Shown piece by piece: positions 3,843-26,306 of a stretch of DNA of 64,000 bases. The translations under genes and the position numbers were made by a program. The notes below the pieces were generated by a model. That model did no database searches and was not told the origin of the DNA. It saw nothing but the letters and a program-made list of their open reading frames with translations. Location: NCBI RefSeq assembly GCF_030162935.1, contig NZ_JASAUZ010000001.1:186001-250000 (forward strand). The letters run 5' to 3'. This stretch comes from Comamonas halotolerans (lineage in GTDB: Bacteria; Pseudomonadota; Gammaproteobacteria; Burkholderiales; Burkholderiaceae_C). How positions within the stretch are numbered: the stretch's first letter is position 1; each line of letters opens with the position of its first letter.

Positions 3843-4802
3843 ATGCAAATCATTTCCCAGACCGATACCGAACACCACCTCCCCTTCCCCGCATTGCTCA
3901 ATGCCATGGAACAAATGTTTGTTCAAGGCTGCGAAGTACCGCTGCGCCACAACCACGCCATCCCAGGGAGTACGCCTGACAGCAATGGCATCTTGCTGCT
4001 CATGCCAGCCTGGCAAACCGGCCAACGCCTCGGGGTCAAGACAGTCTCCATCTTCCCTGGCAACCATGCTCATGGATTGCCGGGGCTGCACTCGGTATAC
4101 ATCTTGTACAACGCCAACACTGGCCAGCCTTTGGCCGTGCTCGATGGTGACACCATCACCTCTCGGCGCACGGCTGCAGCATCTGCCCTGGCTGCGCGTT
4201 GGCTCAGCCGACCTGATGCTCAGAATCTGCTGGTGGTTGGCACTGGCCGTGTAGCCAGTTTGCTGCCTCAGGCCTACGGCTGCGTGCGCGACATTCAATG
4301 CATCGAAGTCTGGAACCGCAGCCCCGCCAGCGCGCACGCACTGGTTGAGCGCCTGCGCGCCCAAGGCATGAATGCCCAGCATACCCCCGACCTGGAAGCC
4401 GCCGTACGCCGTGCCGACATCGTCAGCTGCGCCACCCTCTCGACCGCGCCGCTCATCCGCGGTGAATGGCTGCAGCCCGGCTGCCACCTGGACCTGATTG
4501 GCAGCTTCACCCCAGCCATGCGCGAAAGCGATGGTGAGTGTCTGCGCAAAGCTTCTGTGTTCGCAGACACCACGGAAGCTTTGATCAAAGCCGGTGACCT
4601 GCTGAGCGCCATCGAAGAAGGCGCATGGGCCAAAGAGCGCCTGATTGCCACACTGGAGCAACTGTGCCGCAGCCAGCATCCCGGCAGACGCAATGCCGAT
4701 GAAATCACTCTCTTTAAGTCTGTGGGCAGTGCCTTGGAAGACCTGGCTGCCGCATCGCTGGCGTATGACCAGTTCAACGCTGCCCTTGCCTCAAAGAACT
4801 GA
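3843..4802 (+). CDS. Ornithine cyclodeaminase / mu-crystallin family protein
   Basis: The 319-residue protein shows the family pattern: a substrate-binding N-terminal half with RLGVKTVSIFPGN and GDTITSRRTAAAS, then an NAD(P)-binding Rossmann motif LLVVGTGRVA and a C-terminal LIGSFTPAMRE and FKSVGSALEDLAA. Relatives either deaminate ornithine to proline, reduce delta1-pyrroline-2-carboxylate or other ketimines, or make alanine-related compounds; the sequence alone does not choose between them. It is convergent with a RidA-family gene 133 bases away, a possible functional partner for reactive imines. Its own Shine-Dalgarno sequence is weak. Confidence 0.85.
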   Translation: MQIISQTDTEHHLPFPALLNAMEQMFVQGCEVPLRHNHAIPGSTPDSNGILLLMPAWQTGQRLGVKTVSIFPGNHAHGLPGLHSVYILYNANTGQPLAVLDGDTITSRRTAAASALAARWLSRPDAQNLLVVGTGRVASLLPQAYGCVRDIQCIEVWNRSPASAHALVERLRAQGMNAQHTPDLEAAVRRADIVSCATLSTAPLIRGEWLQPGCHLDLIGSFTPAMRESDGECLRKASVFADTTEALIKAGDLLSAIEEGAWAKERLIATLEQLCRSQHPGRRNADEITLFKSVGSALEDLAAASLAYDQFNAALASKN

Positions 4803-4935
4803 TCTTCCCAAAAGGTGCCTCTTGTCTTGACCCACCGTACAAGGCAAAGCGCAGCCTCAACACAAGCAACGTGGCGAATGCGGTTGCGCAGCGCGTTCTT
4901 TTTACGCTCCGCACTTGTCGCGCTTTCCGCACGCA

Positions 4936-5316
4936 TCAAGCCGCTCTGATTTGCGCGCCCATCACCACCACCTCAATCAGCCAATGTTCTCGCACCATAG
5001 GTGCCACCACTGTGCAGCGTGGTGGCGTGTGACCTGGCACAACCCACGCATCCCACACCTCGTTCATCACTGTGATGTCCGACGGGTTCTTGATAAAAAT
5101 CTGGCACGACAGAATATGCGCCTTGCTGCTGCCGCATTCAACCAGCAAACGTTCCACACGCTCCAACACCTCGGCAGTTTGCGTACGCATATCGCCGTGC
5201 GGATGAGATTCGGGCACCTGCCCAGCCAGATAGACCACACCGTTGTGCACGGCAGCTTCTGAAAAACGCTGGGAAACATGGTGACGCGTGACTGGGCCAG
5301 ATTGAGAGATGGTCAT
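4936..5316 (-). CDS. RidA (YjgF/YER057c/UK114) family protein
   Basis: At 126 residues it is a single RidA domain. It contains VVYLAGQVPES, the strand-helix-strand TAEVLERVERLLVECGSSKAHILSC region and the family C-terminal VREHWLIEVVVMGAQ. RidA proteins form trimers that hydrolyse reactive enamine/imine intermediates. The usual binding-site arginine in a CTRV-type motif appears here as RCTVVAP with a Val-Arg-Glu further on, so the subfamily may differ from the archetype. It ends toward the ornithine cyclodeaminase homologue. The start ATG 5316 fits the domain boundary. Confidence 0.85.
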   Translation of the reverse strand: MTISQSGPVTRHHVSQRFSEAAVHNGVVYLAGQVPESHPHGDMRTQTAEVLERVERLLVECGSSKAHILSCQIFIKNPSDITVMNEVWDAWVVPGHTPPRCTVVAPMVREHWLIEVVVMGAQIRAA

Positions 5317-5680
5317 GGCTTATGTGCCGCTGCGACAACGGCTTGATGAGTGATGAAAAAGGCTACTAGATTAAAACGGTTGAGCGTTATTTGTATCTTT
5401 AATTGGAAAAGCTTGCATGCAAAACCAGCGCACAGCGGCCGCAGGCTTTATGACATCAACCGAATTTGAGACGATCTTCCTGCCTGCGCACCCCGTCGCG
5501 CCGCATTTGCATGACGGCGTGGCTATGCGCAACAAAAGGCAGGAAAGACAGTGAATGGATCAGCATGACGCAGTTGTCGTTGTCGACATCTTCCGCCTAG
5601 ACTTGGATGCCCAGCAAGAGTGAGTACACCTCAGCCAGATACTGCACTGCCCATGCCCACTTTCTGCAATGCGCTTACCG
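5317..5680. other. 364-base region without a confident gene
   Basis: Upstream of the RidA gene the sequence is AT-rich (about 5340-5420), consistent with its promoter. The rest lies downstream of the DUF2149 gene. A minus-strand stretch around 5470-5650 reads as fairly protein-like sequence but is broken by an in-frame TAG and lacks a start; it may be decayed coding sequence. A 46-codon plus-strand frame from 5417 has no clear ribosome site. No obvious intrinsic terminator follows the four-gene operon. Confidence 0.4.
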
Positions 5681-6064
5681 TCACTTTCCGGGTGCCACAT
5701 CATCTGGAACGTAGATGATTTCGCCACTCTCCAATCGGTAGGCCGTGCCCACACGTTGGCCCTGGCGGGCTTGTTGCGGGTTGGTTGCATCTGCCTTGGT
5801 GGCATCAGCCACATAACGTGAGACCTTGCCTCCTTCACGGGTGATGATTTCCATGTTCGGCTGGCCTGGGTTTTTGACCACCGTGAAATCCTTGGCAGTG
5901 AGCATGTCGGCAATGCGCAGGTTGGACACCAGCGCAATCATCAGCGCCAAAGCAAACACCAGCGCCACGTCAAACAGGTTGATCAGAAAGCCCATGGGGT
6001 CCATGTCATCGCTGTCAGCGCCAACGCTCAAGCCACCGCGCAGCAGGGAGCGCCGCCTTCTCAT
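5681..6064 (-). CDS. DUF2149 protein, HmuV-like subunit of the chelatase-linked channel
   Basis: The 127-residue protein has a cytoplasmic Arg-rich start (MRRRRSLLRGG), a DPMGFLINLFDVALVFALALMIALV transmembrane helix (about 22-46) and a small soluble domain. This is the DUF2149 layout, resembling ExbD/TolR: a single helix carrying an acidic residue (the D of LFDVALVF) followed by an outer-face domain. Its ATG overlaps the stop of the ExbB-like gene by 4 bases, implying translational coupling. In Bacteroidetes hmu operons the last gene (hmuV) belongs to this family. It probably pairs with the adjacent channel to energise the TonB-dependent receptor; this is inference from context. Confidence 0.85.
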   Translation of the reverse strand: MRRRRSLLRGGLSVGADSDDMDPMGFLINLFDVALVFALALMIALVSNLRIADMLTAKDFTVVKNPGQPNMEIITREGGKVSRYVADATKADATNPQQARQGQRVGTAYRLESGEIIYVPDDVAPGK

Positions 6065-6678
6065 GATGCCTCCGCCTGCGCAGGCCCTTGCAGTCGCGCG
6101 CTCACCAGCTCCAGCAGTGACAAATCATCCATTGCCCAGCGCTGTGCCGCCTGGTGCAACAAAAATCCGATAGCACCAATCACCAGTCCCACAACCGTGG
6201 TTGCAAAAGCCACTTCCATCTTGCGCGCCAGCACTGCGATATCACCACCCGCCAAAGCCACCAGCGCAGGACCAAGCGGGATCAACGTCCCCATCAGGCC
6301 CAGCAATGGACCAATGCGTGTCATGGTTCGGAATAACGCAAGGCGGCGGTCAATGGCAAGCTCGAACTCTGTGAGCACGCGCTCATGCCAGGTGATATCG
6401 GTTGGCGCTTGGCGCAGTGCCTCCAGCGCCTGGCGCAACGTATCAGCCTTGCGCGGACTGGCGCGGGCCAGCAAATCCAGCAACTCGTGGGCGGGCACAT
6501 TGGCCAGGGCACCCGTGCTCAGGCCCGTGGCATGAGCACGCCGCACACGGTCACTCCAGCGGCCAAAGAAATCGCCCAACGCTATCAGGCAGCGCGCAAG
6601 CAAATAGAGGATGGCAACCACCACCGGCACCTGCAGCGCGGTCGAAATCCATGAGAGAGTGTGTATCAACGATTCCAT
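6061..6678 (-). CDS. MotA/TolQ/ExbB-family proton channel subunit (HmuU-like)
   Basis: A 205-residue inner-membrane protein with an N-terminal helix (about 15-35), a cytoplasmic helical segment and two further helices. The second contains RIGPLLGLMGTLIPLGPAL, the glycine/proline-rich signature of the TolQ/ExbB/MotA family, and the third AFATTVVGLVIGAIGF carries the conserved Thr pair. These proteins use the proton gradient to drive TonB-type or Tol-type machines. It lies between the HmuT-like and DUF2149 genes and overlaps the latter by 4 bases. Its place next to a receptor gene suggests a dedicated energising complex. Confidence 0.88.
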   Translation of the reverse strand: MESLIHTLSWISTALQVPVVVAILYLLARCLIALGDFFGRWSDRVRRAHATGLSTGALANVPAHELLDLLARASPRKADTLRQALEALRQAPTDITWHERVLTEFELAIDRRLALFRTMTRIGPLLGLMGTLIPLGPALVALAGGDIAVLARKMEVAFATTVVGLVIGAIGFLLHQAAQRWAMDDLSLLELVSARLQGPAQAEAS

Positions 6679-6703
6679 ATTCGTGTTGTTTTTTCCAGAT
6701 AAA

Positions 6704-7369
6704 TCAACGCAGGCGTTGCATCAGCAAGCCCACGGCAGCAAGCGCCGCCACAATCACAGCGACCCAGACAAGTCGCCCGCCCCACAACGGCACCTGATCT
6801 ACAAGCGCTTGCATGGCAGGCCGGGCCAGCCACAAGGCAGCTACAGCCTGGGCTGCGTGCAATCCCACGCGCAAGGTGCAGCGCAATGGCCTCTCTGGCA
6901 GCGCCCAGCCAAGCAGCGCCACAGCCAGGCACAGCAAGAGTGCAAAGCCTGCGCCGCACAGCCACGCCAGCGTGTCGTAGTCCCAGCCATCAACCAGCAG
7001 CATCACGGCCACCTGGGCCAAGAACAGCGACAGCAGCGCCGACGGCGGCGGCAGCCAGCCTAGCCTGCGCCACCATCCTGAAAGCGCAGCTTCCTGCGCC
7101 TGCGCAAGCCGCACGGCATGGCTGCCGAACAGCAACGCCTCCGCCAGCAGTAACGCAGCCAGATCCTGCCTGCGCTGCGACGATGAAACCCAGCGCAAAA
7201 TTTCTGCGGCGCTGGTGCGGCTGGCCAGCTCGCCAGAGGCGAGCAGCGCCACAGCCAGCGCCAATGCCACGCCACACTGATGCGCACGCCCCCACTCTGC
7301 CGCTTGCAACGCAAACAGCACAATGCAACAGGCCACAAGCAGCAGCAAGATGCTGCCATCGACATTCAT
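6704..7369 (-). CDS. Multi-spanning membrane protein of the chelatase operon (HmuT-like position)
   Basis: This 221-residue protein has about six predicted hydrophobic helices separated by short Arg-rich loops, and no recognisable catalytic motif. Its ATG overlaps the stop codon of the CobN-like gene (ATGA, 4 bases), so the two are almost certainly co-translated. In hmu operons a membrane protein of unknown function (HmuT) sits at exactly this position between the CobN-like protein and the ExbB-like channel. I cannot prove homology by eye, so the assignment rests on position, size and topology. It could be a scaffold or permease for the released metal or ligand. Confidence 0.6.
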   Translation of the reverse strand: MNVDGSILLLLVACCIVLFALQAAEWGRAHQCGVALALAVALLASGELASRTSAAEILRWVSSSQRRQDLAALLLAEALLFGSHAVRLAQAQEAALSGWWRRLGWLPPPSALLSLFLAQVAVMLLVDGWDYDTLAWLCGAGFALLLCLAVALLGWALPERPLRCTLRVGLHAAQAVAALWLARPAMQALVDQVPLWGGRLVWVAVIVAALAAVGLLMQRLR

Positions 7370-10300
7370 GCCTTAGCTCCTTGGATGCGGCGACGCAGCC
7401 ACCACACAAGCGCTACCAGCACCAGCAAGGCCGCAGCCAGCACCGCCAAAGCGGCTGCGCTGGGGCGCAGCGCCAGCGAAGGCTCAGCGCGGGACGCATC
7501 AGCCGCTGGCCTGCGCTGCTCAGCGCCAGCCTGAGATGAAGGCGCCTTGCTAGCGACAGCCTCACCTTCCTTACGCAACACCGTTGCCTTGTCACTGCCT
7601 ACCACCTCACCCCGATTGGCTGCCTGCAGCGCATCGTCATAACTCTTGCGTGCTTCAGGCACGAGCTTGTCAGCAATGAAGCTGCGCAGTGCCCGGTTGT
7701 CATTGACAAAGCCCGTACCAGCCGCGCCAAAGCGCGTGACCAGATCGGCATGCACACGGGCCACCTCGCTGAGACGCTGCTCGCCGGGTTGCCAGTAGCC
7801 CTTGCGCGCAGTCTCCAGCATCACTGCTGTCATCTCCTGCAACGCGTAGGGCTGCGTGCGCTCAAAGAACTGCTGCACGCCCAGTCCATGCGCATCACGC
7901 ACATAGGTTTCATGCAGCGCATCCCATGTCTCGGGCGCAATGGCGTCAGGCTTCATCACATTCCAGCCATACAGATTGCGGAAGGTCTCGGCAAAGGTTT
8001 CAGCCGACGATGCACCGCCCTGAGTCATGGTTTCAATATAGGCCGGGTTGAGCAGCGTGGAGCGAGCCTCCACCGCAATCGCGGCCTTGGCTTGACGCAC
8101 GCTGGGGTGCGAGGCATTGCGATAGTCACTGAGATATGCCTCTGGCTCCTCGCCGCTCACCTGCCGCACAGCCAGATTCAGGCCCCCCATGAATTCATAA
8201 ACGTGGTCCAAGGAGATCGGCCCCCAGGTATTGGATTCAAGCGGATGCACCACGGCTTGCGTTCCCGCAAGCGCGGCCTCGAAGGCCCCCTCCTGGAACG
8301 CCCCCCACAGGTCGCCCTCACCAAACGCAGCCCCCATGTTGGCAATATAGGTTTGGGCGACTTCAGAGCGCTCTTGCCAGCGGTCGCCTGCCTCCACCAT
8401 GCCCATGATGCCTGTGCCGTAATTGCCGTTGACGCCACCAAACACGCGCACTGCCGAAAAGCGGCGAGCATCTGCGGGCGATGCGCCGCGTTCTTTGAGC
8501 GCACGCTCCACGGCCTGCACCCCTTGCGCTACGGCGTTGTCCTCTTCGCGCGCCTGTGCCGCCATGGTCACGGCCTGGTTGATGAGGTAAAGGCGCGAAG
8601 CCGCGAGGTCTCTCAACTGGCCCGAGGTCTGCACCACCACGTCAATGCGCGGACGCCCCAGCTCCTCACGCGGTATCAGGCGCAGACCAGACACGCGCCC
8701 AAATGGGTCTCTCACTGGAGCCACGCCCAGCAGATACAGAATCTGCGCCACGCTCGTGCCTTCGGTATGGATGAAATCACCCGCCCACAGCGTAAAGGCC
8801 ACCTTGTTGGGCCATTGTCCGTCGTGCGCTGCGCGGTGCTGCGCCAGCATCTGCTCAGCCAGTTGTCGCCCCACAGTCCACGCTTGCTCGGATGGGGTTT
8901 TTTCCGCATCAATGGAAAACAGATTGCGCCCCGTGGGCAGCGAGGCCGGGTTGATCAACGGATCGCCGCCCGACGATGGTGGCGTGAAACCACCGGCTAG
9001 CGCATTGCTCAGCGCGACCAGTTCACGGGCGGGGCTTTCGGCCAGCTGACCACGGTAATGCGGTATGGCGACCAGCCGCTCCTGCAGCGAGAGCACGGCC
9101 TGGGCAAAACGTCGCTCCGCCTCATCGCGCTGGCTGGCCACGCGCTCCAGCGCCAGCGTGAGATGCGCAACAGCACCCATTACTTTTTCTTTGCGCGACG
9201 TCCAGGGCTCGGGCAACTGCTCAACTTGCTGCCAAAAGCGCAGCGCAGCCAGCAACTTTTCCTGCTCGGCCACAGCCATGCCCGCCACGCGCCGGGCTGC
9301 GGATGATGCATCGGCAGTGGCTTCGGCAGTAGCTAGTGCGCCTTCGTGCGCACGGGCCTGCTCCAGCAGCGCAGCAATGACACGGCCTGTCTCGGCCTCT
9401 ATGCGCGACTGCAACTGTGGGTCAGCCAACCACGCGAATATCTTTTGCCGCACAGGCTCAGCTTGCATGGCCGCCAATAGGGGCTTGACGTCTGCACTCG
9501 TCGCAATGTCCAGGGCCTGCCCCATCGCAGGAATGGCCTTGGCAACAGTGCGTGCGGTCTTCAACGCCTCTGGGTCCAGCGCGCGCAGAGCATGCTTGAG
9601 CTTCTGGTCAGAGCGCAGCCCTTCAAGAAACTCGCGCTTTTTCGGATCCGCCAAAGCTCGCACCAAATGCTGGCGCAGCGTTGCGTCATCGGCTGTGGCA
9701 TCAGGCGCTGCTGCCCCCTTGGGGCGGGCCTCTCCCATAGAGATCAGGCCACGTATCAGCTCTTCGTCGCCCGGGCGCCGTTGTGCCTGCTCCCATGCCT
9801 GCGCACGCTGCAGCTCACCAGGCTGCAGCACCTGGCCAAGAACGCGATCAGCGGCCTCGCCGCGCTCAACCTGCGCAATCAGTGTCTGCGCACGCGGCTG
9901 GTAGGTGCGCGCAAGCCACGCCGCATGTTCCAACTGCTCGCGCCGCACCGTACCACGCGCCACATCAAGCTCGGCCAGCGCCTGCACTACCGCATCCTGA
10001 CCCATCAGCCGCGCAGTATCGAGCTGCGCCTGCTTCACATAGGGCGTTCCCAGGGTATAGAGGCCTGCCGTGATACGTGCGCTCTCCACCGTCTCCATAT
10101 GGTCGGTGAGTTGCACAAGTTGTGCGTCCGTCCAGGGCTTTTGTTCATCGAGCGACAGATCACGGTGCAAGCCAAATGCCACGGCCTGTTTTTGAATGTC
10201 CTGCGCATACTGGCTTTTGACTGCCGGGCTGCCAGCGCCTTCCCAGGCCAGCAGTAGGTCTGTCAGCTGCTTGTAACCCGACTGCGCTCCGCCCTCACGC

Positions 10301-12144
10301 AAGGGTGGCGTGAGGTGCGAGACAATGGTCGCGTAGCTGCGGCGCTTGGCAATCATGGCCTCCCCCACATTGCCCATGGTGTACAGATAAAGATGTGGCA
10401 CGCTGCCGATCAATGCGTCCGGCCAGTCCTTGTCGGACAGTGCCACCTGCTTGTAAGGCGTGAACTCCAGACTGCCGTGGGTGCCGAAGTGCATCACCAC
10501 GTCAGCAGCGAAAACCTCGCGTGTCCACAGATACGAAGCCACATAAGGCCACGGCGGCGCAAGATTCGTTCCGTGCACCAGCTTGAAGTTGTCGTCGCCC
10601 ACACCCGGCAACGGCTGCGGCAACAGCACCACGTTGCCAAAGGAGACACGCGCCACAGCCACACGGCCGCTGTCACTCAGGTAAGTGCCGGGGGCGGGGC
10701 CAAACTGCTGCGTCACCTGATCGCACAAAAGCTGCGTGATCTGCTTGCCGCACCAGCCTTTCAACTGCTCTGCCTGCACCCAGGCAGGATCTGCATCCTG
10801 CATGAAACGTGCGAAATCTCCCTTTGCATAGCCAGCAATGTTGGGGCCTCGCTGCTGCAGCAACTGAGCAAATCCGGCTTCGCTAGCGGGCAGCCCCTCC
10901 ACGCGGTAGCCTTCGGCGCGCAGACGCCTGAGCAAGGCATAAAGCGATGGCACCACCTCCAGGTCACCAGCTGTCAGCGCGCTCTGGCCTGGGCCTTTGT
11001 AGTAGTAAATGGCCAGCTTCTTGTCGGCGTTGGACTTGCTCTTGAGCGCCACGGTGCGCTGCACCAGATCGGCAAAGCGCTCAAGCCGCTGCGGCATGGC
11101 CTGAAACACGCGCAGACCATCCTGATCACGAAACTGCGCGGCAATCGCCATGGGTGTAGTCGCCCCATCAAGTTCCGGCAAGGTGACCGACATGGTCAGC
11201 AGACCACCGTCGAAGCTGCGCTGCTCAGCCAGCCACTCACTCTCTTGCGTGAAGACGCTGACGGGCGCAAAAAGCGGAATATTGCGCTTAAGCAGCCACT
11301 GCCGCGCTTCATCGGCCTGCCCGAGTGTCAAGCGCCCGTGAGGCATGTACACCACTGCCGCAGGATCCGCTGCCTTGAGAAATTCAAGGCGCTTGCGCAC
11401 GGCAGAAATTGGCACCACCTCAAAACCACGACCCTCGAATTCACGGATAACCGCATCTACATGGTCACGATTGGCATTGAATGGACCGGGCACGCTGGTC
11501 AGCAGTGCCAGACGGGGACGCTCCGCTTTCCAGCCCTGCTGTTTGCTCTGCCACGCTTTAAGGTCAGCGTAATTGGTGAAGATAGCGTCGTCGTCCAGAT
11601 GAAAGAACACATCCTGCGGAATCGGAAAAACAGGCTGTACTTGGTCCACAAACAGTTTTTTTCCATCCAGCACGCTGCGTGCGTAGGTCTGCAAGCGCGC
11701 ATAGTTCACAGGTCCGCCGTCGCGCAGATAGGCTGTGATGGCATCAAGATCAGCCCCTTGCAGGGTGGTAAGCATGTCATGTTGCGGATTGGTGGGGCCG
11801 TCCACATAGACGGGCGTTCCCGACTGCGCAGCAGCACGCAACTGCTGCGCCTGTGCATCGTCAAGCTTCAAGCCACGTCCAAAGACCAGCACAAGGTCAT
11901 AGCTGCGCGCCTTCGCCAGCTGTTCCAGGGGTAAAACTTCAATGCGCGTAAAGGCGCCAGGGCTTGCTTTCAGCAGACGTGCCACCTGGAATTCTGGATA
12001 TTGCACCAGTGCCACACGCGTCGGTGCCAACCAGGTGCGCCAAGCCAGCCACAGCGCTATGACAGCCGCAAGGATCAGCACCGCAGCAAGCAGTGCTCGC
12101 CGCCTGCCCTGTTTTTTTTTGTTTGAGCCACGAGCACATCCCAT
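7366..12144 (-). CDS. Membrane-anchored CobN/Mg-chelatase-type protein (HmuS-like)
   Basis: At 1592 residues this exceeds ordinary CobN (about 1250-1300). The core is unmistakable: VMHFGTHGSLEFTP near residue 550, AKRRSYATIVSHLTPP, GGDPLINPASLPTGRNLF near 1055 and a long C-terminal domain with VFGGVNGNYGTGIMG. It adds a transmembrane helix at about 17-36 and another at about 1562-1583 followed by RRRIQG, so the bulk should be on the periplasmic face. No CobS/CobT AAA partners or cobalamin genes are present. HmuS-type relatives are reported to remove metal from haem rather than insert cobalt. GAGG precedes ATG 12144. It heads a coupled four-gene operon diverging from the receptor. Confidence 0.88.
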   Translation of the reverse strand: MGCARGSNKKKQGRRRALLAAVLILAAVIALWLAWRTWLAPTRVALVQYPEFQVARLLKASPGAFTRIEVLPLEQLAKARSYDLVLVFGRGLKLDDAQAQQLRAAAQSGTPVYVDGPTNPQHDMLTTLQGADLDAITAYLRDGGPVNYARLQTYARSVLDGKKLFVDQVQPVFPIPQDVFFHLDDDAIFTNYADLKAWQSKQQGWKAERPRLALLTSVPGPFNANRDHVDAVIREFEGRGFEVVPISAVRKRLEFLKAADPAAVVYMPHGRLTLGQADEARQWLLKRNIPLFAPVSVFTQESEWLAEQRSFDGGLLTMSVTLPELDGATTPMAIAAQFRDQDGLRVFQAMPQRLERFADLVQRTVALKSKSNADKKLAIYYYKGPGQSALTAGDLEVVPSLYALLRRLRAEGYRVEGLPASEAGFAQLLQQRGPNIAGYAKGDFARFMQDADPAWVQAEQLKGWCGKQITQLLCDQVTQQFGPAPGTYLSDSGRVAVARVSFGNVVLLPQPLPGVGDDNFKLVHGTNLAPPWPYVASYLWTREVFAADVVMHFGTHGSLEFTPYKQVALSDKDWPDALIGSVPHLYLYTMGNVGEAMIAKRRSYATIVSHLTPPLREGGAQSGYKQLTDLLLAWEGAGSPAVKSQYAQDIQKQAVAFGLHRDLSLDEQKPWTDAQLVQLTDHMETVESARITAGLYTLGTPYVKQAQLDTARLMGQDAVVQALAELDVARGTVRREQLEHAAWLARTYQPRAQTLIAQVERGEAADRVLGQVLQPGELQRAQAWEQAQRRPGDEELIRGLISMGEARPKGAAAPDATADDATLRQHLVRALADPKKREFLEGLRSDQKLKHALRALDPEALKTARTVAKAIPAMGQALDIATSADVKPLLAAMQAEPVRQKIFAWLADPQLQSRIEAETGRVIAALLEQARAHEGALATAEATADASSAARRVAGMAVAEQEKLLAALRFWQQVEQLPEPWTSRKEKVMGAVAHLTLALERVASQRDEAERRFAQAVLSLQERLVAIPHYRGQLAESPARELVALSNALAGGFTPPSSGGDPLINPASLPTGRNLFSIDAEKTPSEQAWTVGRQLAEQMLAQHRAAHDGQWPNKVAFTLWAGDFIHTEGTSVAQILYLLGVAPVRDPFGRVSGLRLIPREELGRPRIDVVVQTSGQLRDLAASRLYLINQAVTMAAQAREEDNAVAQGVQAVERALKERGASPADARRFSAVRVFGGVNGNYGTGIMGMVEAGDRWQERSEVAQTYIANMGAAFGEGDLWGAFQEGAFEAALAGTQAVVHPLESNTWGPISLDHVYEFMGGLNLAVRQVSGEEPEAYLSDYRNASHPSVRQAKAAIAVEARSTLLNPAYIETMTQGGASSAETFAETFRNLYGWNVMKPDAIAPETWDALHETYVRDAHGLGVQQFFERTQPYALQEMTAVMLETARKGYWQPGEQRLSEVARVHADLVTRFGAAGTGFVNDNRALRSFIADKLVPEARKSYDDALQAANRGEVVGSDKATVLRKEGEAVASKAPSSQAGAEQRRPAADASRAEPSLALRPSAAALAVLAAALLVLVALVWWLRRRIQGAKA

Positions 12145-12176
12145 TTTTTCTGCCTCATTCTAAAAAATAATATGTG

Positions 12177-12188
12177 ATGTTATAACAT
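12177..12188. promoter_or_regulatory. Candidate Zur box in the receptor/chelatase divergent promoter
   Basis: ATGTTATAACAT is a perfect 12-bp palindrome built from the TGTTATA half-site typical of proteobacterial Zur operators. It lies 32 bases from the chelatase ATG and 34 from the receptor ATG in a 78-base intergenic region, so one bound dimer could repress both directions. A Zur-type gene lies immediately beyond the receptor. Binding is inferred. Confidence 0.65.
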
Positions 12189-12222
12189 TCCGTTTTCACA
12201 AATTGCTAAAGATGGAGAGGCC

Positions 12223-14532
12223 ATGTTTAGATTTAGATTGACGCGGCTTCAAACAGCCATGCTGGAGATATGGGCAGCCGCCGGCGCGGTATGCGCCCAA
12301 GAAATACCAGCGCGTACACCGGCTCAGGCCGAAACAGAGGAGGTCGCCAAACTATCTGGCGACGCAGCAGAACTACCAGCCATAGTTACCACCGCCACCC
12401 GTCGGCCAACGGCTGCGCTGACCACGCCCGCGACGGTAACGGTGATTGACGCGCAACAGCTGCAGGAAAATCTGGTGACGGACTTCAGCGAGATGTTTCG
12501 CTACGAGCCCGGAATATCAGTCAGCCATGAGGCACGTGGACGCGGTGGCGAAGCAGCCATCCAGGTGCGCGGTATTGGCGCCCAGCGCTTGGGCATATTC
12601 CTCGATGGCGTTCGCCAGCCTGGAGGCTATGTGGCGGCGGGAGCCAACACCGGTCAACTGCGCGTGGACCCCTTGTCGTTGCGCCGCGTTGAAATTCTCA
12701 AAGGCCCTGCTTCTGGCCTGTATGGCAGCGACGCGCTGGCAGGCGTGGTTCTGTTTCGCACGCTGTCTCCACAAGATTTTCTGGATGATTCCAAAAACCT
12801 CGGAGGCTCAACCTCCACAGGTTACGACGGCCGCGACAATGGCCGCTGGGCCAATGCCAATCTGGCGTTGCGCATGGGCAGCACACAGAACCTGCTGTCA
12901 TTGACGGCACGTAACGGCCATCAACTGAAGAACCATTCCGACAGCGGCTTGCCCCCCAATCCACAGGACACGCAGATACGCAATCTGCTGTTCAAATCAG
13001 TGCTGGGCATCGACCCCGCACAATCGCTGACCTTGACCGCCGAGCACTATGAGCAGTCGATCCGCACCGGCCAGCACTCACTGATTGGCCCCATTGCTGG
13101 CGGCACACGCATCAGCAGCAGCCAAGCAGATGACGTCAGCCGCCGCGACCGCTTAGGCCTGGCGTACCGCTATGCACCCAGCAACACCTGGTTCGACCAT
13201 TTCTCTGCGCAAATCGACTACCAGCGCAGCTACAGCAAAGAGCGCACCTACGAAGGACGCAATCCACCTGGATTTGCCCCGGCATTGCTGCGAGACAGCG
13301 CCATGACCTACCGAGAGCCTCAGTGGTCAGGCAACTTGCAATTCGATGGCAAGACCATCCAGGGCAATGCGACCCACCGCTGGGTAGCAGGCATGGACGT
13401 GTTGTCCAAATCGATCAGCCAGTACAACAATGCCGTACAGCGCCCGGACACAGGCGCTGGCGCTAGCCAATTCATCGATGGCGAAATCTTCCCGCGCCGC
13501 ACAGCGCCCGAAGCCGATGTACGCAGTCTGGGCCTGTTCATTCAGGACGAGATTGCCTTCGGCGACGGCAGACTGCGCCTGACGCCGAGTTTGCGTTTTG
13601 ACACCTATAAGATTTCAGCCCAACCAGACAGCTTGTTCGCCAACGCCAACGTGACAGGAACACGTGCAGCAGACCTTTCGAAAAATTCATGGACACCGCG
13701 CCTGGGGCTGAGCTACGAATGGCAGCCTCATCAGGTCGTCTACACTAATGTGGTCACGGGTTTCCGCATGCCTACACCGGACCAGCTCAACCGCACCGGA
13801 CAGACTGCCGTAGCCACCTTCGTCCACGATTTCGTCCCCAATCCCGACCTCAAACCCGAACGTAGCCGGGGGGTGGAACTGGGTATGCGTGGCAAATCAG
13901 ACATAGGCTCCTATGAGCTATCGGCCTTCTACAACCGCTACACCGACTTCATCGACACGCAGATGACGGCCTATATCCCACCAGGAATGAGTGGTGGCCC
14001 GCGTGCAATCAGACGTTTTCAGTCGCGCAATATCGGCGAGGTGGAAATCTACGGTATCGAGGCCAAAGGGCAGATGCCAATCAGCCACTGGTTCAATGCT
14101 GCTGATAGCTGGCACCTGATCGGAGCCATGCAGTGGTCAAAGGGCAATGACAAGAAAGCTGACCAGCCACTCAACAGCATTCAACCTGCTAAGTTGGTGG
14201 CAGGACTGCGCTGGGATGCGCATGATGGCCATGTTGGCGGGCAGCTCACAGGCAACTTTGTGGCTGGCAAACGCGACGTCAACGAGGCATTGACGCAGAC
14301 CGGGCCAACCGCGCCCGTTCCACTCAAAACTGCAGGCTACGCCACCATGGATATGAGCGCCTACTGGCGCATCGGCAAACAAGCTACCTTGAACCTGGCT
14401 GTCTACAACCTGTTTGACCGCAAATACTACGACTGGTCTGCCGTGAGCGGCCTGACGGGCAATGATGCGCGACTGCCTGCCTATACGGCAGCGGGCCGCA
14501 CTGCCTCAATCAGCATGCGAGTGGATTTCTGA
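12223..14532 (+). CDS. TonB-dependent outer-membrane receptor, haem-receptor-like
   Basis: A 769-residue receptor: signal peptide ending near AVCAQ, a plug domain (about 50-180) with IVTTATRRPTAAL as the likely TonB-box region, VQVRGIGAQR-type and VEILKGPASGLYGSDALAG motifs, then a beta-barrel ending in a phenylalanine (SISMRVDF). An FRMP (514-517) and an NPDL (540-543) flank a histidine at 535, echoing the FRAP-His-NPNL signature of haem/haemoglobin receptors. GGAGAGG precedes the ATG. It diverges from the chelatase operon across a Zur-like site and its last 27 bases overlap the convergent zur gene. The ligand is probably a metal-tetrapyrrole or metallophore; the sequence cannot decide. Confidence 0.88.
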   Translation: MFRFRLTRLQTAMLEIWAAAGAVCAQEIPARTPAQAETEEVAKLSGDAAELPAIVTTATRRPTAALTTPATVTVIDAQQLQENLVTDFSEMFRYEPGISVSHEARGRGGEAAIQVRGIGAQRLGIFLDGVRQPGGYVAAGANTGQLRVDPLSLRRVEILKGPASGLYGSDALAGVVLFRTLSPQDFLDDSKNLGGSTSTGYDGRDNGRWANANLALRMGSTQNLLSLTARNGHQLKNHSDSGLPPNPQDTQIRNLLFKSVLGIDPAQSLTLTAEHYEQSIRTGQHSLIGPIAGGTRISSSQADDVSRRDRLGLAYRYAPSNTWFDHFSAQIDYQRSYSKERTYEGRNPPGFAPALLRDSAMTYREPQWSGNLQFDGKTIQGNATHRWVAGMDVLSKSISQYNNAVQRPDTGAGASQFIDGEIFPRRTAPEADVRSLGLFIQDEIAFGDGRLRLTPSLRFDTYKISAQPDSLFANANVTGTRAADLSKNSWTPRLGLSYEWQPHQVVYTNVVTGFRMPTPDQLNRTGQTAVATFVHDFVPNPDLKPERSRGVELGMRGKSDIGSYELSAFYNRYTDFIDTQMTAYIPPGMSGGPRAIRRFQSRNIGEVEIYGIEAKGQMPISHWFNAADSWHLIGAMQWSKGNDKKADQPLNSIQPAKLVAGLRWDAHDGHVGGQLTGNFVAGKRDVNEALTQTGPTAPVPLKTAGYATMDMSAYWRIGKQATLNLAVYNLFDRKYYDWSAVSGLTGNDARLPAYTAAGRTASISMRVDF

Positions 14533-14979
14533 CGAAGTGCCCCCCTGCGGCTCCGTCTCAATGGTAGGGGCGTGGTCACAACGGCCGCAGATACCATGCA
14601 TCTCGACAGTGGCTGCCCCCATGCGGAAGTCGTTGTCTTTCGACCAGCCTTTGAGCCTGCGCTCAATCGCCTGGTCCGCAAACTCATCTACACGCCCGCA
14701 CTGGTCACAAATGGCAAAAACAACCAGTCCGTGCTGGTGATCATGGGGGTGTGCACATGCAACAAAGGAGTTCAGCGTTTCCACGCGGTGCACAAGCCCA
14801 TACTCGATCAACTTGTCCAGTGCGCGATATACCTGCTGCGGTGCACGCAGCCCTTGCGCCCGCAACTGATCGAGCAAGGTGTAGGCACTTGCAGGATTCT
14901 CCTCACGCTCCAGCGCATGGAGCACGAGAGACTGGTGTTTGGTCAGCTCACGGGTGTGCAGCTTTGCAGGGGATGACAT
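14506..14979 (-). CDS. zur: Fur-family zinc regulator Zur
   Basis: The 157-residue product matches Zur more than Fur: SAYTLLDQLR, VYRALDKLIEYGLVHRVETLNSFVAC, FAICDQCGRVDEF and MHGICGRC align with E. coli Zur features, including two CxxC pairs for structural zinc and a HPHDHQHG cluster. A His-containing tail follows. ATG 14979 gives the normal length; an upstream in-frame extension has no support. Zur with zinc binds TGTTATA-type operators to repress zinc-acquisition genes, and such a site lies in the neighbouring divergent promoter. The gene is convergent with the receptor and overlaps it by 27 bases. A weaker half-palindrome before its own start hints at autoregulation. Confidence 0.82.
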   Translation of the reverse strand: MSSPAKLHTRELTKHQSLVLHALEREENPASAYTLLDQLRAQGLRAPQQVYRALDKLIEYGLVHRVETLNSFVACAHPHDHQHGLVVFAICDQCGRVDEFADQAIERRLKGWSKDNDFRMGAATVEMHGICGRCDHAPTIETEPQGGTSSEIHSHAD

Positions 14980-14989
14980 GGCTTGAATT

Positions 14990-15002
14990 GTTATGCTGTA
15001 AC
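14990..15002. promoter_or_regulatory. zur: Weak Zur-like inverted repeat before zur
   Basis: GTTATGCTGTAAC, 11 bases upstream of the zur ATG, carries GTTA and TAAC arms separated by five bases and resembles a degraded TGTTATA dyad. It could allow autoregulation. The match is partial and may be chance. Confidence 0.25.
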
Positions 15003-15371
15003 GCTGGCAGTTTAGCGCTTGCAGCGGGCAGTGAAAGTAACAAACAAGCCCAGGCCTGCGGCATGCATCAGCGGTCATGCGCTGTTATGCAAATGCACAC
15101 TGTTGGGCAATTCCGACGACATGCATCCGCACCATAGCCGCGGCGGATCCAAAGTGTTCTGCGCCAAACTGGATTGGATAAAAGCTTCTCCAGCGCACGC
15201 CAGCCGCAGGACTGGCGCACCTTCACACAAAACTCATATCGGCAGCGGATGTTTGAGCGCAACGAGTTGCGCCGGATAGCCATCAGCAGACGCGCTTATT
15301 TGGTGACTTTCTTGTTACGGACAAGAAAAGCCCCGTCAGTACAGCAGCAGCAAGAAGCACCGCATCCAAAC

Positions 15372-24158: not shown

Positions 24159-26306
24159 ATGCCTCGCTACGCCCTGCTGCTTGCCCACGACGAACGCCCC
24201 AGCCCAACCACCGTATGGCCCTCACAAGCAGGCAGCAACTGTGACGGCTGGGCCGAATGGTTCAGCGCCACGCCACTGCTTTTTAGCGTATTGCTTGGCG
24301 ATGCGCACCAGTTGCCGGAGTTGACGCCCTGCAGCGCCTACCAGGACAAGGAAAACCTTTCAGCTCTGGCTGCCCCTATGGACGCAGTCAAGACACGCTG
24401 GCAGTGGCTGAAAGCGCAGATGGAGCCCTTACCGGCCCACTGGCCGAACTCATTGCACAAACTGTGGCAAGAGATTGACGCCACCATTACCCAAAGCACA
24501 CGCCAGTGGCTGCTGCTGGATTGCGCCACGCTATGCCCGCATGACTTCGACGAACCTGAGTTTTTGCTGTTTTTACAAGCGCTTCGTGATCAATGCCTTG
24601 CATGGGACTGCAGCAGCAATGACTTCCCCGAAGTGCTTCAAAAACTCAAGCAAGACCCCGTATCACAACTAGGATGGTGGAGCCCGTCGGTGATTGCGCG
24701 CACCGAGGTGGTAGAGCCTGATAGCGAAGAGAACTGGCCCGCATGGCTTGCCAACCACTACGAGCCCCGCTACCACAATGCCTGGGAAGAGGCTTTGGAT
24801 GCCTATATGGTCATGCCCAAGCTGCACCCACGCACTGGTCGGCCTCCCCAAAACAAATCCGAGCGCGACGACTGGCCGATGGGGCTGGTCACGCCCTATG
24901 GCCGCTGGCTGCTACGCCCCATTGAGGGTGCCAGCATGGCCTTTGCCAGTGGCGACGCCATCAGCGTGCGCTACCCTGAAACCACGCCCGGCGAAGGCTG
25001 CAAGTCTGGCCTCAAAGACCTCAACGGCGTGTGGACCGTGCCGCCCAGCGCGGGCTACCGGGACGCCTACGCCATCACGCCCCATGTGATGGCCTGCAAG
25101 AGCACTGCCGACCCTGCCCGCGAAGACCTGCGCAGCCTGCCGGGGTTACAGTTGCTGCACGAAGCTGTCTCCCACGTAGAGTACGATGAAGAAGGTGATG
25201 GCGTGCTGCGTGCCGCAGCTGGCGACGACCTGGCACCGCAGGCGCTGATGCTCAACACCCACGGCCAGCCGCTGTTCGACAGCAGCCGCTATGAACGTGT
25301 GAACCCCTTCAACGCCAAGACCGGTCTGGCCGTGGCCCTCATACGCAGACCCTACACGGATGCGCATGGAGAGGAAAATTCGCACATCTATGAAGGTGTG
25401 CTGCACATCAGCGGCAAAGAAATTGTGCCCTGCGAGTTTGAGTTGATAGAGCGCGGGTTCAACAACTCCCCACCCAAAGTCTTCCCCGGCGGCAAGCTGC
25501 TGGCATTCACGCACGAGGGAAATCCACGCGTCTACAACACCCAAGGGAAACTGCTGGCCGCACCAGACATTTGGTGCGCGCCACTACACCGCAATGTGAA
25601 GAAAAACGAGTTGCTGGCATTCATGGGTGAGCGCCCGGATGCAGAGATGGGCATGTTCTCGCTCAAGGACTTCAGCTTCTCGCCCAGTGGTGAAACCTGG
25701 CAGGACTATTCCGATGCACTGCAAGGTGCCTTCAAGCGCTTGATCGAGCCCAGCGAGACCACCACGGTCACCCGCACGGCACTGATCGAGGGTGAGGATG
25801 CGCAGTGGATGCAGGCCATCACCCGCATTCTGTCGCTTGGCGATGAGACTGAAGCAGCACAGCTGCTGGAGCAATGGCGTGAATGCGTGGCCAACCCTGA
25901 CCCCGATGATCTGGGCTGGGACAGCGACGAAGACGAGTTTGCCCCGGAACACATGGAGCTGCCTGCCGACGAAAACCTGCTCACGCTGTACTGGGTGCAC
26001 CTGCAGGCCATTGCCACGCACTTTGCCCATATCGACTGGAAGAACAGCGACGCGCTGCGTGACAGCACCTGGCTGCCAGGTGCGCAGGATTGGTGCTGGG
26101 ACCGCGCTGATGAAGGTGATGGCATCAGCGATGGCTTCGCCAGCCTGGCAGCACATCTGGAGCCACAGGGATTGAGCCTGCTGCACCTGGCCACCGATGA
26201 TGATTCACGCCGTTTTGGCGTGGTACGCACCGAAGATGCGCAAGAGTTGCTGGAGCTGCTTGATCAGGCTGTGTGCCGTGCATGGCTGGAGCAAGCTGTC
26301 CATTGA
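24159..26306 (+). CDS. Uncharacterised 715-residue protein with WG-repeat-like segment
   Basis: I do not recognise a named family. The N-terminal third is Trp- and Asp-rich. The middle has beta-type repeats resembling WG/KWG repeats: DAISVRYPE, NTHGQPLFDSSRYERV, GVLHISGKEIVPCEFELIERGF and NTQGKLLA. An acidic segment (DPDDLGWDSDEDEF) leads to a C-terminal domain with IDWKNSDALRDSTWLPGAQDW. There is no signal peptide or membrane helix, so it is probably cytoplasmic. The first residues (MPRYALLLAHD) look like a genuine start. It is monocistronic, with a weak terminator downstream. A housekeeping enzyme role is unlikely; a beta-propeller or interaction scaffold is my guess. Confidence 0.7.
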   Translation: MPRYALLLAHDERPSPTTVWPSQAGSNCDGWAEWFSATPLLFSVLLGDAHQLPELTPCSAYQDKENLSALAAPMDAVKTRWQWLKAQMEPLPAHWPNSLHKLWQEIDATITQSTRQWLLLDCATLCPHDFDEPEFLLFLQALRDQCLAWDCSSNDFPEVLQKLKQDPVSQLGWWSPSVIARTEVVEPDSEENWPAWLANHYEPRYHNAWEEALDAYMVMPKLHPRTGRPPQNKSERDDWPMGLVTPYGRWLLRPIEGASMAFASGDAISVRYPETTPGEGCKSGLKDLNGVWTVPPSAGYRDAYAITPHVMACKSTADPAREDLRSLPGLQLLHEAVSHVEYDEEGDGVLRAAAGDDLAPQALMLNTHGQPLFDSSRYERVNPFNAKTGLAVALIRRPYTDAHGEENSHIYEGVLHISGKEIVPCEFELIERGFNNSPPKVFPGGKLLAFTHEGNPRVYNTQGKLLAAPDIWCAPLHRNVKKNELLAFMGERPDAEMGMFSLKDFSFSPSGETWQDYSDALQGAFKRLIEPSETTTVTRTALIEGEDAQWMQAITRILSLGDETEAAQLLEQWRECVANPDPDDLGWDSDEDEFAPEHMELPADENLLTLYWVHLQAIATHFAHIDWKNSDALRDSTWLPGAQDWCWDRADEGDGISDGFASLAAHLEPQGLSLLHLATDDDSRRFGVVRTEDAQELLELLDQAVCRAWLEQAVH

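Follow-up and report, generated by a model that had tools for sequence, protein, structure and literature searches.

A Zur-type regulator beside an HmuS-like chelatase module in Comamonas halotolerans: a candidate system for zinc release from imported tetrapyrroles

A six-gene locus of Comamonas halotolerans, lying between positions 5681 and 14979 of a 64,000-nucleotide stretch of DNA (RefSeq assembly GCF_030162935.1, contig NZ_JASAUZ010000001.1, positions 186,001 to 250,000; hereafter the window), places a relative of the heme de-chelatase HmuS next to a FUR-family regulator of the Zur type. On its directly observed gene content, homology, active-site residues and promoter boxes, we give an even chance to the proposal that the locus is an import module of the HmuS de-chelatase kind, placed under Zur control and specialised for zinc, which would be freed from a tetrapyrrole brought in by the receptor. 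Control by Zur, the identity of the metal and of the ligand, a reaction running towards release and a channel pair acting as motor are the inferred parts of this proposal. A sequence-only reading of the window had listed a receptor, a CobN-type protein, a multi-spanning protein, an ExbB-like channel and a DUF2149 protein beside a zinc-type regulator; all six genes are confirmed, and are here called R, S, T, U, V and zur, respectively.

On sequence grounds, S (7366..12144, minus strand; PF02514) is HmuS-like rather than a CobN that inserts cobalt. Among solved structures, a PDB sequence search places it nearest to HmuS (9d26; 1199.6 bits, versus 370.6 for ChlH and 322.2 for CobN), and the nine NCBIfam CobN/BchH models that match it all score below their cut-offs, the best CobN model reaching 639.1 against 1248. 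In a FastTree tree of 108 rows, the window S lies inside one group of 71 HmuS-like rows that stands on a long branch (local support 100), with the remaining 37 rows made up of CobN, BchH and a further branch, called branch C below; this tree carries the caveat that an odd letter make-up was flagged in many rows and that long branches meet among the 37 rows outside the HmuS-like group. The structure search, family models, tree and active-site residues thus agree with the earlier assignment of S, and the grouping with cobalt-inserting CobN that would have spoken against it is not what the tree gives. S is also the sole CobN-family gene in a whole-genome family search, and, as had been claimed for the neighbourhood, there is no CobS over cut-off, here genome-wide, the sub-cut-off match being a MoxR-like ATPase; CobT and other cob genes were not searched for. 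Close orthologues are scarce among the genomes sampled: 78 of 399 genomes of the order have a match, and the next best score after the genome's own (3541.7 bits) is 307.5 bits.

The catalytic and lining residues, taken together with the other HmuS features from the available passages of PMC12583661, illustrate this relationship further. The HmuS motif HFG(T/A)HG, with the catalytic His-538, is present as HFGTHG with His556, and the second motif, LSLDHxxEFMGG (His-1209, Glu-1212), appears as ISLDHVYEFMGG, which differs in its first letter and contributes His1314. Among the HmuS-like rows covering each position, H538 and E577 are kept in 71/71, and D1208, H1209 and E1212 in 70/70, whereas the CobN residue in the H1209 column is Asp in 6/6 rows. 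The heme ligand His-254 corresponds to His269 in S and is His in 71/71 rows; the numbering of Met-79, His-254, His-538 and Glu-577 was checked on the alignment of the window S with HmuS. S carries a hydrophobic segment at both ends, with best 19-residue means of 2.68 and 2.80. The cobaltochelatase CobN-CobS-CobT shares the fold family PF02514 with S, but differs by the Asp at the second catalytic position and by its AAA+ partners. These observations also bear on the direction of the reaction. Chelation and de-chelation are chemically one reaction run in two directions, according to the text available from PMC12583661, and S could in principle insert zinc or cobalt into a periplasmic tetrapyrrole, making or reloading a metallophore; yet no AAA+ partner is seen, the only CobS candidate being the MoxR-like ATPase, and the His pair of S is that of the de-chelatase, which makes insertion very unlikely.

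The available description of hmuYRSTUV from Bacteroides thetaiotaomicron (PMC12583661) agrees with the window in the S-T-U-V set and order, in the heme-type receptor, and in an S protein with both active-site His residues and a hydrophobic anchor at either end. The two differ in the Zur-type regulator and boxes of the window, in the divergent orientation of R, and in HmuY, which is missing from the six module proteins. The earlier claim of an hmu-like module stands as regards the S-T-U-V order and is corrected as regards R: this gene lies on the plus strand, divergent from S across an intergenic gap of 78 base pairs (12145-12222), so that it does not head an operon with S-T-U-V. The reading frames of all six genes are open at the coordinates given, and S-T-U-V probably form one transcript, since V and U, and likewise S and T, overlap by 4 base pairs; the gap between T and U is 24 base pairs. 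In addition, relative to the partly available account of HmuS, Met-79, a heme ligand, is Arg90 in S, and the methionine-rich insertion of domain IV is not present, with 5 Met in the 295-residue excised region. S is thus HmuS-like and not a strict HmuS. Across the 71 HmuS-like rows the Met-79 column holds Arg in 44, Met in 20, His in 4 and Ile in 3, and the Met-type rows come from Bacteroidota, Lentisphaerota, Hydrogenedentota and one unclassified bacterium (L085). Arg at this position would fit zinc, which is redox-inert and could do without a heme held by Met at site 1.

The zur product (14506..14979, minus strand; Pfam FUR) has as its best two PDB matches 7dh7, entitled 'Transcriptional regulator fur family' and not named Zur in the PDB, and 4mtd (E. 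coli Zur). The best NCBIfam model is NF008646 (Zur), at 94.6 bits and under its cut-off of 167. Alignment to 4mtd finds His, Cys, His and Glu at the positions that we take to form the Zur regulatory site; the genome holds four FUR-family genes in all. Two Zur-type boxes were located with the pattern TGTTATNNNATAACA, presumably the Neisseria-type Zur pattern: one in the gap between S and R (12173..12187; 11/12, p 0.001) and one upstream of zur (14989..15003; 10/12, p 0.002), both p values from 5000 mononucleotide shuffles. Across the genome, TGTTATNNNATAACA occurs nowhere with zero mismatches and at three places with one, the other two lying in or beside unrelated open reading frames. At two mismatches there are 37 places, no more than the 44 of a reversed control, and the box upstream of zur is therefore weak taken alone. 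Moreover, the pattern was chosen after the intergenic sequence was known, which leaves the match in the window less than fully independent; its recurrence in relatives is independent. An earlier Zur pattern, GTTATANNNTATAAC, was wrongly spaced and did not detect the site, and a box found near a ZIP gene (C2) with two mismatches falls within the coding frame and was set aside as chance. The box in the S/R gap may be read as a putative operator through which Zur would control the R/S promoter.

This reading draws on 20 proteobacterial loci, hand-listed with L053 in and the window out. A promoter box of at least 10/12 is found in 7/8 Burkholderiales loci (L012, L013, L031, L032, L047, L053 and L070; not L011) and in 4/12 other proteobacterial loci (L041, L048, L052 and L062). 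Module promoters thus carry the box in 11/20 cases versus 11/164 for the remaining genes of those loci (Fisher p 4.5e-7, uncorrected for kinship; control genes were frames of at least 120 residues in a greedy non-overlapping set), and the boxed control genes include zinc genes, namely ZnuA of L047 and a COG0523 gene of L034. Of 9 aligned intergenic stretches, 6 (window, L012, L013, L031, L047 and L053) share the core ATGTTATAACAT unchanged, while L070 departs from it by one letter, L032 does not align there and L011 lacks it. BLAST with the window zur gives a match in 6/8 Burkholderiales loci (L012, L013, L031, L032, L047 and L070) at 35-82% identity, with 39% in L032 and 35% in L047; the contig of L053 is only 3.3 kb long, and L041 and L055 also hold FUR-family genes. 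The neighbourhood of zur, whose conservation across Burkholderiales had been put forward as a check, recurs in these six loci, and the PDB matches together with the recurring boxes support a regulator of the Zur type over one of the iron type, as first proposed.

Further zinc context comes from the COG0523 GTPases, for which, as for the residue counts, 8 of 77 loci with an S frame shorter than 1200 residues (L053, L058, L059, L064, L071, L075, L079 and L084) were left out. A COG0523 gene lies in the fetched stretch of 12/43 loci with Arg at the Met-79 position versus 0/26 others (Fisher p 0.0023, uncorrected for kinship). The 18 COG0523 frames come from 13 loci (one frame is a fragment and two of the loci are near-identical), and 13 of them have no more than 3 His in 15 residues, unlike CobW; six other COG0523 proteins, five beside CobN genes and one in L134, have 5 to 12. 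FolE2 is found in L012 and ZnuA in L047. The genome of the window itself has no ZnuA-family match and two ZIP-family matches. The missing ZnuA was considered as a sign of replacement and rejected, ZnuA being present in 33/80 genomes of the family (own included) and in 8/12 module-bearing genomes. That the module might instead serve heme-iron uptake and merely adjoin zur, or be under the control of both metals, is suggested by the fact that R and S are nearest to heme proteins; but with Zur-type boxes recurring at the promoter, a zur-like gene near in 6/8 Burkholderiales loci, and neither the Met ligand of site 1 nor the Met-rich insertion present, this account is quite unlikely.

The receptor R (12223..14532, plus strand; Pfam Plug and barrel) exceeds the cut-offs of two heme-receptor families, TIGR01786 (443.8 bits, cut-off 323.75) and TIGR01785 (369.1 bits, cut-off 316.85). 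Its best PDB match is PhuR, at 311.3 bits versus 25.7 for ZnuD, which, in the portions available of PMC4542158, is a TonB-dependent zinc receptor induced by zinc starvation. His535 of R, between the FRAP- and NPDL-like stretches, is conserved in 15/15 aligned relatives (7 Burkholderiales, 8 other Proteobacteria), and the plug-loop stretch is without His in the window and in 13/15 relatives. Heme receptors use a plug His, and zinc is usually five-coordinate in porphyrins. One axial ligand rather than two in R would suit zinc, which is suggestive only. In an Arg-type Bacteroidota locus that was tested (L014), the protein between R and S holds two HmuY-type stretches. A protein of about 356 residues stands between R and S in L014, L020, L021, L022, L025, L033 and other Bacteroidota loci.

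In an alternative reading, R and S would handle a non-tetrapyrrole zincophore and S would strip zinc from another kind of chelate. In its favour, the evidence for zinc is firmer than that for a tetrapyrrole, and a Pfam scan of 16 proteins of the window gives no evident ligand-making enzyme. Nevertheless, R belongs to heme-receptor families, a Bacteroidota locus adds an HmuY-type domain, and the superfamily members of known function (HmuS, CobN and ChlH) act on tetrapyrroles, as set out in the accessible part of PMC12583661. A zincophore is thus unlikely.

Next to S are T, U and V. U (6061..6678, minus strand; PF01618, 43.9 bits) is a MotA/TolQ/ExbB-type channel protein, and V (5681..6064, minus strand; PF09919, 95.1 bits) is a DUF2149 protein whose N-terminal membrane segment holds an acidic residue (LFDVALVF), Asp or Glu there in 65/65 aligned sequences (62 D, 3 E). 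In five loci, U and V remain with S where BLAST with the window R finds no receptor match in the stretch, although a distant receptor might escape this search: two of Kuenenia (the near-identical L039 and L040), one of Aquisphaera (L046), one of Hydrogenedentota (L038) and one of Lentisphaerae (L056). This persistence favours S rather than R as the partner driven by U and V. In L039 and L040 (Candidatus Kuenenia), ExbB and DUF2149 lie ahead of S, and two COG0523 frames lie upstream. T (6704..7369, minus strand), a multi-spanning membrane protein, has no family match in Pfam or NCBIfam; it is modelled as all-helical (AlphaFold2, predicted local distance difference test score 91.2) and shares 13-25% identity with aligned T proteins outside Burkholderiales.

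Under the zinc de-chelatase proposal, the module would operate as follows. At low zinc, Zur would leave the shared R/S operator, as its box suggests. R would carry a metal-loaded ligand into the periplasm, most likely a zinc tetrapyrrole such as Zn-protoporphyrin or Zn-coproporphyrin, to judge from its receptor family. By analogy with HmuS, S, anchored in the inner membrane at both ends, would grip the ligand between His556 and His1314 and free the metal. U and V would form a proton-driven pair powering R or, more probably, S, in place of the AAA+ partners of CobN/ChlH. T might hand the metal inward or stabilise the complex; failing that, zinc could be imported by one of the two genomic ZIP-family proteins. 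The activity described for HmuS in the available passages of PMC12583661 is an anaerobic, NADH-dependent heme de-chelation. One candidate ligand, zinc coproporphyrin III, has been reported in a bacterium of cheese rinds (PMC6104308), and the part of that paper available does not mention a zincophore, zinc uptake or acquisition, or zur.

Several observations weigh against this proposal. The putative Zur site is a motif match; 9/20 proteobacterial loci, Xylophilus L011 included, lack the box. Arg in place of Met-79 need not mark zinc use, because it is the common state (44/71). The receptors of L013 and L070 each hold one His in the plug stretch. The COG0523 family includes the cobalt chaperone CobW, with its His stretch, according to the portion available of PMC2770081, and is thereby weakened as a pure zinc mark; the COG0523 protein of the Zur-boxed locus L134 is His-rich like CobW. 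Among 11 hand-listed Arg-type Bacteroidota loci, 7 show no COG0523 cluster member, and none was found close to the Acidobacteria loci either. The absence of ZnuA is uninformative, given that 33/80 genomes of the family, and 8/12 with the module, possess it. One comparison gave no support for V as an ExbD homologue, a 13-row V profile against one ExbD sequence giving an hhalign probability of 0.09%, and T resembles no known metal permease clearly in structural alignment.

A similar locus of P. aeruginosa is already known, without an assigned function. PA1922-PA1925 is described, in the accessible parts of PMC4542158, PMC8531726, PMC8456098, PMC11761036 and PMC13083405, as a TonB-dependent receptor, a CobN-like protein, a protein with an ExbD annotation and one hypothetical protein; zinc depletion induces the locus, and gel shifts show that Zur binds the promoter of PA1922. 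The likeness to the window, which had been suggested at the outset, holds in kind and by this published description, in which four genes are reported and none is described as T; it may not extend to the clade. The Pseudomonas CobN-like proteins carrying a DH..E motif were reached from branch C, while the window S belongs to the HmuS-like clade. In a search with the L140 protein, the best 120 of 1487 relatives were listed, of which 119 had a readable motif, all with His, and Pseudomonas, Halopseudomonas and Bordetella proteins are among the matches listed; PA1923 may belong to the His-bearing part of branch C. A cobN-like locus linked to Zur was already published in 2015, and the available text of PMC4542158 gives its role as 'to be determined'. 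Among the papers listed in a literature search that left subscription journals mostly outside, none visibly links HmuS-type de-chelation with Zur.

The HmuS-like clade is distinguished by His at the second catalytic position, and so is part of branch C, where this residue occurs in 5/23 rows of the tree set and in 7 rows of a wider set (L134, L137, L140, L180, L183, L192 and L193). A box of at least 10/12 at the estimated receptor promoter is present in 3/7 of these His rows (L134, L140 and L192) versus 0/24 CobN-like Asp rows, a set from which true CobN, BchH and HmuS rows were left out; some rows of the wider set lack the receptor or full flanks in their stretch. This link between His and the box is weakened by the Asp rows L119, L121, L184 and L196, which hold such a box elsewhere, and by the Asp row L131, which has a gene matching zur at 44 bits. 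In L118 and L133, two CobN-family genes with different second-catalytic motifs lie close together, one of them beside a CobS-type gene.

A further alternative is a cobalt function, namely corrinoid or cobalt scavenging that would spare zinc by letting the corrinoid metal substitute for it. Cobalt eases zinc starvation in P. aeruginosa (available passages of PMC13083405), Zur-controlled operons with cobN-like genes have been so interpreted (PMC4542158, PMC8531726 and PMC11761036, as far as their text is available), and related modules occur beside cobalamin genes: L121 (Trichlorobacter lovleyi pGLOV01) near cobalamin lower-ligand genes, and the Burkholderiales branch-C loci L135 and L136 alongside genes matching cobO, BtuC and BtuF. 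However, L121, L135 and L136 carry Asp at the second catalytic position and the three Zur-boxed branch-C loci carry His, so that cobalt scavenging is rather unlikely for the window.

Related modules occur in several settings. In Bacteroides finegoldii the module genes form hmu with HmuY. In L120 (Runella slithyformis pRUNSL01; 4119-12153), a receptor, a protein in the T position, ExbB, DUF2149 and a CobN-like protein stand inside a hyp NiFe-hydrogenase maturation operon; the protein in the T position has weak DsbD_2 and NicO scores, both under cut-offs, and L120 is likely a nickel version of the module. In L121 (4708-12639) a DUF2162 protein takes the T position, and the module is followed by its own ExbB-ExbD-TonB. 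It is tempting to generalize to a set of sister modules, serving iron, zinc, nickel or cobalt, whose metal could be told from the His/Asp and Met/Arg positions, the window representing a zinc de-chelatase driven by the proton motive force and feeding on zinc tetrapyrroles, with ExbB/DUF2149 driving the enzyme rather than the receptor and replacing the ATPases of CobN/ChlH; this wider scheme is decidedly tentative, and more doubtful than the zinc proposal itself. If S does take zinc out of a tetrapyrrole, some bacteria may use heme-like pigments as a source of zinc, zinc coproporphyrin and its like would count as zinc nutrients, and many proteins named cobaltochelatase would be misnamed. The His/Asp difference, if upheld, would provide a sequence rule separating metal removers from inserters. 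The tie to the recently proven chemistry of HmuS makes Zur-linked cobN-like loci directly and cheaply testable, through the removal of zinc from a tetrapyrrole by S.

As for the surroundings of the module, zur is convergent with R, their 3' ends overlapping by 27 base pairs, and beyond it lie DNA gyrase/topoisomerase genes and genes of unrelated functions, ten neighbours having been scanned with Pfam. No HmuY domain was found in the six module proteins or these ten neighbours, the remainder of the window not having been scanned, and no sigma-70-type promoter was found in 11900-15300. Elsewhere in the window, 24159-26306 encodes a large protein with DUF7822 and DUF6630 domains.

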